Assembly: GCA_946535985.1 (NCBI GenBank)
Contig: CAMNDY010000007.1
Coordinates: 1 to 64,000, forward strand
DNA: 64,000 bases
Direction of reading: 5' to 3'
Origin: an uncultured Treponema sp.
GTDB lineage: Bacteria; Spirochaetota; Spirochaetia; Treponematales; Treponemataceae
Positions 31,620 to 34,635 of this stretch are shown here, piece after piece. Within the stretch, counting starts at the first letter, position 1, and every line of letters starts with the position of its first letter. The notes beneath the pieces were generated by a model, which made no database searches, was not told the origin of the DNA, and saw nothing but the letters and a program-made list of their open reading frames with translations. A program made the translations under genes and the position numbers.

Positions 31620-31639
31620 AAAATCGCTACGCGATTTTT
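31620..31639 (+). terminator. Terminator after gyrA
   Basis: AAAATCGC-TAC-GCGATTTT directly after the gyrA stop codon. The T run is part of the stem and continues for one more T. Further inverted repeats follow to about 31705. Confidence 0.55.
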
Positions 31640-31726
31640 ACGAGTTTACTCTTGCTCGCAAAAGGCTCGCATTTTTGCTGCGCAAAAACCGAGAAAACTC
31701 TAAGGCCGCTGGTGATCGATGAATAA

Positions 31727-32427: not shown

Positions 32428-32444
32428 CTATCGGTTAGAAGTTA

Positions 32445-32976
32445 GTTTCACGTGAAACTGTCTTTACTGATAATAATGAAATATGAAAAAACATCTGGCT
32501 CTCCTTGGGGAAGTTTCTGGACTCTATAGTTTTTAGAGCTGCTCGGATTGATGTTTCACATGAAACATTGTTTGAGCGGAAAAACAGAAAGAAAATAGGA
32601 TCTATCAGGTTTGCATACGAATGAATAAGGAAAAGAGTCTTTTGGATTTGTTTCATGTGAAACAAAGGTTCGTTATCCAGATGTAGTGTTTCATGTAAAA
32701 CAAAGCAGGATTCTTTGGTAGTGAAGGTTTTTTTGAAATGAATGTTTCACATGAAACGGAAAAGGATTTTTCAAAAAAGCTTATAGCGTTTGTGTTTCAC
32801 ATGAAACAATCAGGTTGAAAAGGGAAGGGGGAGAAAGTGTTTCATGTGAAACATATGCTGAAGTGTTTGTAGAGTAGGTTAGTATTGAAGGTGTTTATTT
32901 TTTTTTGTTGTTGTAAAAATGTTTCATGTGAAACGTTGTTGGTTTTTAAGATCTTTATTTTGGTTTCATGTGAAAC
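32445..32976. other. Cluster of nine parS-like (ParB centromere) sites
   Basis: Sites match the core GTTTCACGTGAAAC of the chromosomal parS palindrome. One is perfect (32445-32458). Three have the centre CACATG (32553-32566, 32744-32757, 32794-32807) and four CATGTG (32650-32663, 32839-32852, 32921-32934, 32963-32976). One is degenerate, GTTTCATGTAAAAC (32688-32701). Spacing varies from about 30 to 110 bases. The minus-strand frames through them (with repeated SHET or SCET) are by-products of the palindromes. ParB should load here to organise the origin region; parA and parB are not in the window. Confidence 0.85.
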
Positions 32977-33010
32977 TTTTTGTATAAATAAGAAGTTGTG
33001 AAGAGTAAAG

Positions 33011-33091: not shown

Positions 33092-33172
33092 ATAAAGACG
33101 CAGTTGATTTTTTATTTTCTACAAGATAAAGTTCTTGTGAGGCATGAAAATCATTTTTTTAAAGAATAAATA

Positions 33173-33324
33173 CAAAAAAATAGCGAGAAGTCGAATTTCA
33201 GATTACAAAAAGGCTCTACACTGCTGCCGCATAAGCGGCAACGTATATAATCAAGGCAGTGTAGCGCATAGGCGGTGAACCGCCGGTTTTGGAATATGAA
33301 ATTCGGCTGGTAGCTATTTTTTTT
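33173..33324. other. Palindromic element folding into a three-way junction
   Basis: Outer arms AAAAAAATAGC (33174-33184) and GCTATTTTTTT (33313-33323), then a 12-pair helix (33189-33200 with 33297-33308, one T-G pair). It encloses two more helices: CTACACTGC (33216-33224) with GCAGTGTAG (33256-33264), holding an inner TGCCGC-ATAA-GCGGCA, and GGCGG-TGAA-CCGCC (33271-33284). T runs exist on both strands at the ends. Either a structured RNA or a non-coding mobile palindrome. Confidence 0.6.
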
Positions 33325-33374
33325 ATATTTGAATTTATATATAATTAATTTTCATTCTTATGAGGATAAATAAT

Positions 33375-33893
33375 ATGAATAATATCGAAATTCGTTCTGT
33401 AAAACCAAAAGATGCCAAAGATCTTCTGAAAATCTATTCTTATTACGTAGAAAACACTGCAATCAGCTTTGAATATGTAACTCCTTCTGTAAAAGAGTTC
33501 AAAAAGCGCATAAAAACAATTACAAAGCGATTTCCTTATATCTGTCTGGTAAAAGAAGGTCAGATTAAAGGTTATGCTTATGCAAATACCTTCCATGCCC
33601 GAAAAGCCTATAACTGGTCGGTTGAACTTTCCATTTATGTTGATAAAGACTGCAGAAAGTGTGGTTATGGCCGAATCTTGTATACAGAACTTGAAAAACA
33701 GTTAAAATCCCGGGGTTTTAGAAATATGTATGCCGGTATTGCAACACCTTTGCAGGAAGATGAATATCTTGATTTTTCAAGCCATAAATTCCACGAAAAG
33801 ATGGGTTTTGTAAAGGTTGCAGAGTTCCATGGCTGCGGAATAAAGTTTGATCGTGTTTATAATTTGATTTATGTAGAAAAGGTGTTATCTTAA
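33375..33893 (+). CDS. GNAT acetyltransferase, phosphinothricin acetyltransferase-like
   Basis: 172 residues. The pattern ENTAISFEYVTPSVKEFKKR near residue 25, then AYANTFHARKAYNWSVELSI, YVDKDCRKCGYGRILYTELE and KFHEKMGFVKVAEF follow the Pat/Bar and MnaT type of GNAT, which acetylates phosphinothricin-like amino acids or methionine derivatives. The real substrate is unknown. ATG 33375 is chosen over ATG 33360, since AGGA at about 33362 then serves as binding site. Overlaps the end of the convergent J-domain gene by 9 bases. Confidence 0.88.
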   Translation: MNNIEIRSVKPKDAKDLLKIYSYYVENTAISFEYVTPSVKEFKKRIKTITKRFPYICLVKEGQIKGYAYANTFHARKAYNWSVELSIYVDKDCRKCGYGRILYTELEKQLKSRGFRNMYAGIATPLQEDEYLDFSSHKFHEKMGFVKVAEFHGCGIKFDRVYNLIYVEKVLS

Positions 33894-34499: not shown

Positions 34500-34516
34500 A
34501 AAATATTAATAAGGCG

Positions 34517-34624
34517 GCCCTTCGACCAGCTCAGGGACCCCGGTTTTTACTAAAGGACCCCACGTTTCTGTTTGCGTGGTCCCTGGGTTTTGTTCCGATG
34601 TGGTCCCTGAGCTTGTCGAAGGGC
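34517..34624. repeat. Cluster of family B repeats
   Basis: Two copies of the family B core in opposite orientation (34517-34539 and 34602-34624) flank a hairpin in which GGACCCCACG near 34551 pairs with CGTGGTCC near 34574. The composite sits just after lysA on the minus strand and could act as its terminator. Confidence 0.7.
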
Positions 34625-34635
34625 TTTGTTTTTGT

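Follow-up and report, generated by a model that had tools for sequence, protein, structure and literature searches.

The palindromic element at positions 33173-33324 of the window, the whole stretch of 64,000 nucleotides from an uncultured Treponema sp. that was analyzed here, is a member of a dispersed family of MITEs (non-autonomous DNA transposons). We put at roughly three in four the probability that it is an old copy of an ISAs1-type MITE, remodelled after insertion by arm copying. The family is new and ordinary in kind; its mode of evolution is unusual. The original prediction had left a choice between a new structured RNA and a non-coding mobile element; the mobile element stands, and the RNA is not well supported.

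Structure and location of the window copy

The minimum free energy of 33173-33324 is −65.8 kcal/mol, compared to −33.95 kcal/mol (sd 3.46) for shuffled sequences (z −9.21), and 0 of 200 shuffles folded as low, which bears out the claim that the structure is too regular for chance. The predicted parts are all present, including a 12-pair outer helix, two inner hairpins with the loops ATAA (33231-33234) and TGAA (33276-33279), T runs on both strands, and matching A/T-rich ends, which form an end helix (33174-33184 with 33313-33323). The palindrome continues past these limits, with ~33144-33172 pairing imperfectly with ~33325-33355 (Table 1). No ORF of at least 60 amino acids overlaps the element. 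The core of the family has a common plan consisting of P1, an asymmetric internal loop, P2, a CAAAAA/TTTTG helix, P3, P4, the GTATATAATTNCAAGG segment and P5. A diverged subfamily in the genomes G292, G021 and G100 retains the identical plan and loops, scoring ~60-90 bits.

Table 1. Features of the window copy and the pairing of its segments.
Feature	Position	Strand	Remarks
Whole extended palindrome (core and outer arms)	33144..33355	+	Matching outer arms ATGAAAATCATTTTTTTAAAG.../ATGAAAATTAATTATATATAAATTC; orthologue L056; orientation set by the family model
Family core (covariance model R1 positions 1-150)	33175..33322	+	R1 match 157.6 bits, E 2.4e-36, the copy being one of the 37 training sequences
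P1 left strand AAAAAATAGC	33175..33184	+	Pairs with 33313-33322; P1 differences among copies are nearly all matched double changes
P1 right strand GCTATTTTTT	33313..33322	+	Pairs with 33175-33184
Internal loop 5' side GCGAGAAG (family GCG[CG]GAAG)	33183..33190	+	Opposite 33307-33314; kept across copies, including the diverged G292/G021 subfamily
Internal loop 3' side CTGGTAGC (family CYGG[AT]AGC)	33307..33314	+	Opposite 33183-33190
P2 left strand (12-pair helix)	33189..33200	+	Pairs with 33297-33308
P2 right strand	33297..33308	+	Pairs with 33189-33200
P3 left strand CTACACTGC	33216..33224	+	Pairs with 33256-33264; strong covariation
P3 right strand GCAGTGTAG	33256..33264	+	Pairs with 33216-33224
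P4 hairpin GCCGC-ATAA-GCGGC	33226..33239	+	
Conserved segment GTATATAATCAAGG (family GTATATAATTNCAAGG)	33243..33256	+	14 bases in the junction, unpaired yet strongly conserved; TATAAT within
P5 hairpin GGCGG-TGAA-CCGCC	33271..33284	+	Every pair changed on both sides across copies

The element lies between a parS-like array (32444-32977), to the right of which it had been correctly placed, and a GNAT-type acetyltransferase gene (33360-33893; PF13420, 4.4e-29) beginning some tens of bases downstream. The array comprises nine parS-like 16-mers (TGTTTCAYRTGAAACA, with 0-2 mismatches; chance expectation 0.15 per whole window); it lies downstream of gyrA and is adjoined by several DnaA-box-like sequences of the TTATCCACA type. 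It is probably an origin/partition region. The proximity of the element to this array looks incidental, because the other copies are scattered over the whole genome. Two further dispersed repeats were observed in the neighborhood. One follows gyrA directly (~31636-31701, ~65 bp) and matches several further sites at 82-94% in the window's genome (G000), G019, G026 and G008. The other, at ~34511-34625 between DnaJ-like and decarboxylase-like ORFs, comprises two short segments with a great number of matches on both strands in the same four genomes.

The sister genome G026 carries the orthologue of the window copy (L056) at the same site, with 96% identity over 181 bp. The terminal inverted repeats of the window copy are degraded and no target duplication is recognizable at it; its original ends and duplication would have been those described below for recent copies.

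Distribution and transposon hallmarks of the family

A search of G000, an 86% complete draft, against itself revealed ~38-40 dispersed copies with 72-100% identity, a count that rests on such searches; minus-strand self-matches were also obtained, due to the palindrome. G026 harbors roughly as many copies. It had been proposed that many near-identical copies would indicate a MITE, and the ~38 copies in G000 favor a mobile element. The proposed homologue search with a covariance model likewise returned a family rather than a single-copy RNA gene. Of 118 genomes of the genus, 64 contain the family according to the model R1, which was built from 37 diverse copies, and many of these 64 have at least 26 scored candidates. 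In a phylum-wide draw of 247 genomes, all eight positives belong to this one genus, which comprises rumen and gut Treponema. When 84,980 GTDB species were scanned for the exact pattern, the 67 stretches recovered all came from Treponema/Spirochaetales records; these are mainly of ruminant origin and include the isolate Treponema sp. JC4. Searches of viral contigs, phages and plasmids gave no match, and carriage by any of these was rejected. An integron attC array was also rejected, the copies being single and dispersed.

The hallmarks of transposition are clearest in the recent copies of the sister genomes G292 and G021, which are ~215-bp units (214-218 bp) ending in CAGGGCAAACGCATTATAAAT and its inverse. 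Direct repeats of 10 bp with at most one mismatch flank 13 of the 17 recent copies, compared to 0 of 272 mismatched control pairs; examples are GGGACTTGAT, GCAAAGATTA and GAAATGCAAT. The ~20-bp terminal inverted repeats (CAGGGC...) of the recent copies are also found in one copy of G000 (L025:4748-4962), where CAGGGCTTCCGCATTATAAATA ends are accompanied by a 10-bp duplication without mismatch, and another copy in this genome (L045) has CAGGGAAATCAATTTT flanks on both sides. Several sites filled in G000 are empty in relatives, namely L023 in G026, L028 in G019, and L029 in both G019 and G008; L023 lacks a clean 10-bp duplication. The elements are thus short and dispersed, have terminal repeats and target duplications, and carry no transposase gene.

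ISAs1 elements have inverted repeats beginning with CAGGG and 10-bp direct repeats (PMC11946415), and the recent copies agree with the ISAs1 pattern of CAGGG ends with duplications of 8-10 bp. G292 itself contains 18 ISAs1 copies (NF033564, E 1.8e-102) with CAGGGCAAACGCATG ends, several of them with clear 10-bp duplications, and the first 14 bases of these ends are identical to those of the element. Two other ISAs1 genes in the genus, L292 in G137 and L291 in G064, have MITE-like ends (CAGGGCCTCCGCATTATAAATA and CAGGGCAAACGCATTATA, respectively). From the terminal repeats, the 10-bp duplications and the presence in the genus of ISAs1 with matching ends, we therefore conclude that the family is a MITE. 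As a side observation, the near-identity of the 18 ISAs1 copies (L270-L287) in the nearly complete genome G292 and their absence from its relative G021 indicate a recent burst.

The enzyme involved is suggested by these ends. An ISAs1-family transposase acting in trans would insert the ~215-bp unit, in which a conserved core of ~150 bp, rich in hairpins, is enclosed by the CAGGG repeats, with duplication of 10 bp of target. Searches for an ISAs1 transposase were negative in G000 and in most of the carrier genomes, which are incomplete drafts, and across the genus the presence of ISAs1 does not correlate with that of the element, so that ISAs1 was rejected as a predictor of it. Since ISAs1 is lacking in G000 and the two do not co-occur across the genus, its mobilization of the window's subfamily (the type-1 copies) is only inferred, and these copies may use another route of movement. 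The core is not part of the insertion sequence, so that this reading does not account for its conservation.

Movement as a REP/REPIN-type repeat by a RAYT (Y1) transposase, which would fit the small size, palindromic form, intergenic location and high copy number of the element, is barely credible. The Y1 transposase domain (PF01797) is absent from G000, and the recent copies have terminal repeats and 10-bp duplications of the DDE type; the duplications largely refute this explanation.

Paired changes in the helices and in the flanking DNA

Among 37 diverse type-1 copies, 97.6% of the helix cells are paired, 228 cells are changed on both sides, and two-sided changes occur in 27 of the 44 pairs. 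The covariation score is 0.366, compared to 0.118 for shuffled and at most 0.054 for slid controls. One-sided changes are nearly absent from P1, P3 and P5, and G-U or U-G cells number 34 of ~4,400 (85 copies). The compensatory changes that had been named as a sign of RNA are thus abundant, but with so few one-sided G-U steps they are weak evidence for it.

The copies of the window's clade, which we refer to as old, differ sharply in this respect from the recent copies of G292 and G021. At 90-95% mutual identity, old copies display 84 matched double and 25 one-sided differences, whereas the recent copies display 38 and 864, respectively. The one-sided differences in recent copies comprise G-T (300) and A-C (263) in about equal numbers, although G-U should be favored over A-C if one strand were transcribed; hence single changes accumulate in the recent copies, and neither strand looks like that of an RNA. 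Given this equality and the scarcity of one-sided G-U cells, the covariation in this family is poor evidence for RNA. Two qualifications apply to these counts. The double changes of old copies go back in part to a few founder variants and are to that extent not independent, and the difference between old and recent copies could reflect lineage rather than age, because they stem from different genomes.

The core could instead be a functional structured RNA, or a domain of one, spread by the transposon and kept paired by selection on its fold. The strong covariation is in line with this, as are the unpaired motifs common to highly diverged subfamilies and the preferred orientation to the downstream gene (80 same versus 11 opposite). 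We consider it unlikely, however, on the base-change evidence above and on three further grounds. The family has no match in Rfam at gathering or relaxed thresholds (a known RNA family was rejected on this basis), the copies are often upstream of promoters rather than within leaders, and selection on an RNA does not account for matching arms in host DNA.

Such matching was observed in old copies, whose flanks are locus-specific and mutually complementary past the limits of the element. At 36-70 nt outside the core the signal is significant (z 7 to 13), tandem gene contexts included (z 7.2), and the complementarity vanishes by 110-150 nt. Copies in G100 resemble the old copies in this. In the recent copies of G292 and G021 it is absent (z 0.7), and the target duplications are distinct. 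In G000, G026 and G008 a lysine-rich gene end, AAAAAAACTGCAAA, is mirrored in the promoter spacer of the next tRNA (TTGACT-ATTTTGCAGTTTTTTTA-TATATT), whereas relatives without the element have an unrelated spacer, AAGTGAGTGTTAATCAC. The outer right arm of one copy (L049) is the exact inverse of its left arm, even at bases left unpaired in other copies. When same-site copies of G000 and G026 are compared, arms differ and yet match themselves (L027/L057), and several copies are in opposite orientation. As a point against arm copying, the flanks of the empty L023 site already carry some inverted similarity.

It was also considered whether the element targets pre-existing palindromes, such as terminators or older copies, in which case the arms would predate the insertion. 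Nested copies (L120, L049 and L055) and arms that in some cases look like terminator stems are consistent with this. Nevertheless, the explanation is very improbable, as the flanks of recent insertions have no inverted complementarity and the empty tRNA sites have no mirrored sequence. Other repeats were also observed at element sites, including an 80-bp repeat (GCACAGCTGCTCGGAGACTCACTCAAAACGCTCCACTGGAGCGTTTTGCCGGC...) inside one G000 copy (L043:11644-11731), which is lacking from the orthologous copy in G026 and has other copies in G026, G008 and G019, and a palindromic repeat distinct from the element (GTCATTGCGAGGAGCGAAGCGACGTGGCAATC and related sequences) in or beside two sites (L089 and L116) in G019 and G026.

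Template switching between inverted repeats has two known outcomes, homogenization of the arms and inversion of the spacer (PMC8604942), and has been proposed as the source of multibase compensatory changes in RNA genes (PMC8794818). Both outcomes are seen here, and old copies change in pairs with matching that spreads to host DNA, whereas recent copies do neither; we therefore favor arm copying by template switching during DNA replication, after insertion, over selection on an RNA. Selection for the hairpin, as RNA or as DNA, is a possible cause of the pairing. Arm copying would occur when the replicating strand folds back and one arm templates the other, so that both arms change together and the hairpin stays matched. 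The same process would carry the matching tens of bases past the element into host DNA, would erase the target duplication, and may flip the core. Remodelling after insertion is suggested by the way in which old copies differ from recent ones. We further propose, tentatively and at somewhat less than even odds, that replication repeatedly rewrites one arm from the other, with the result that perfect hairpins persist and the host DNA near each insertion, such as promoter spacers and gene ends, becomes increasingly palindromic.

Gene context and comparison with known systems

The right-hand gene is co-oriented with the core strand in 80 of 91 cases and opposite in 11. The contexts are divergent in 41 cases, tandem on the same strand (++) in 26, tandem on the opposite strand (--) in 4 and convergent in 4, these counts including orthologous sites that are not all independent. 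Recent copies have a similar orientation tendency. In most copies sigma-70-like promoters are found ~10-65 nt downstream, so that the copies lie on the promoter side of genes and, in most cases, precede the promoter instead of falling in the leader; at these sites the element would persist mostly in one orientation. A portable promoter with a fixed −35 spacing is unsupported, as −35-like sites are spread over ~0-70 nt. With T runs on both strands, the hairpin may act as a two-way terminator, and insulation would be a reasonable benefit.

This distribution raises the question of a domesticated cis-acting DNA element, such as an insulating hairpin or part of an outward promoter, selected near promoters, a reading compatible with an origin as a transposon. 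The excess of divergent over convergent contexts and of ++ over -- arrangements, the downstream promoters, and the sites common to G000 and G026 are in its favor. We regard it as doubtful, however, since insertion bias combined with purging of harmful insertions yields an identical distribution, several sites are empty in relatives, and the copies in G292 and G021 decay on one side at a time.

For the remodelled MITE, which is the reading we prefer, the wider meaning lies in the matched double changes. These are the usual proof of a functional RNA and are found here in a transposon, in tens of copies per genome and dozens of genomes; the signal is missing in recent insertions and extends to host DNA. 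This cautions that covariation by itself should not be taken to identify an RNA. The family also makes the origin and upkeep of hairpins by template switching (PMC8794818) directly testable in bacteria, and points to a possible route by which insertions rewrite promoter spacers.

The family is like ISAs1 elements and the MITEs derived from them in its CAGGG ends, 10-bp target duplication (PMC11946415), dispersal, and lack of a gene of its own. It differs in that its core is unrelated, conserved and structured, not an internally deleted insertion sequence, and in that most host genomes have no detectable ISAs1 gene. With REP/REPIN repeats moved by RAYT it has in common short palindromic intergenic repeats, but not the Y1 transposase, which G000 lacks, and its target duplications are DDE-type. 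The Correia/NEMIS, ERIC, RUP, YPAL and CIR elements are 100-220 bp in length, have inverted repeats, are mostly intergenic and form hairpins. The family resembles them in size, inverted repeats, intergenic location and hairpin fold. At the sequence level the comparison consisted of the searches of Rfam, phages and plasmids, none of which gave a match. Unlike these bacterial hairpin MITEs (reviewed in PMC2229807), the family has a genus-wide covariation that is almost only two-sided, a palindrome that grows into host DNA, and a promoter-side location. Finally, it shares with the template-switch remodelling of inverted repeats the two-sided Watson-Crick changes, arm homogenization and spacer inversion (PMC8794818, PMC8604942); those studies concerned RNA genes and yeast coding DNA, whereas here the remodelled sequences are dispersed copies of a mobile element and their flanks.
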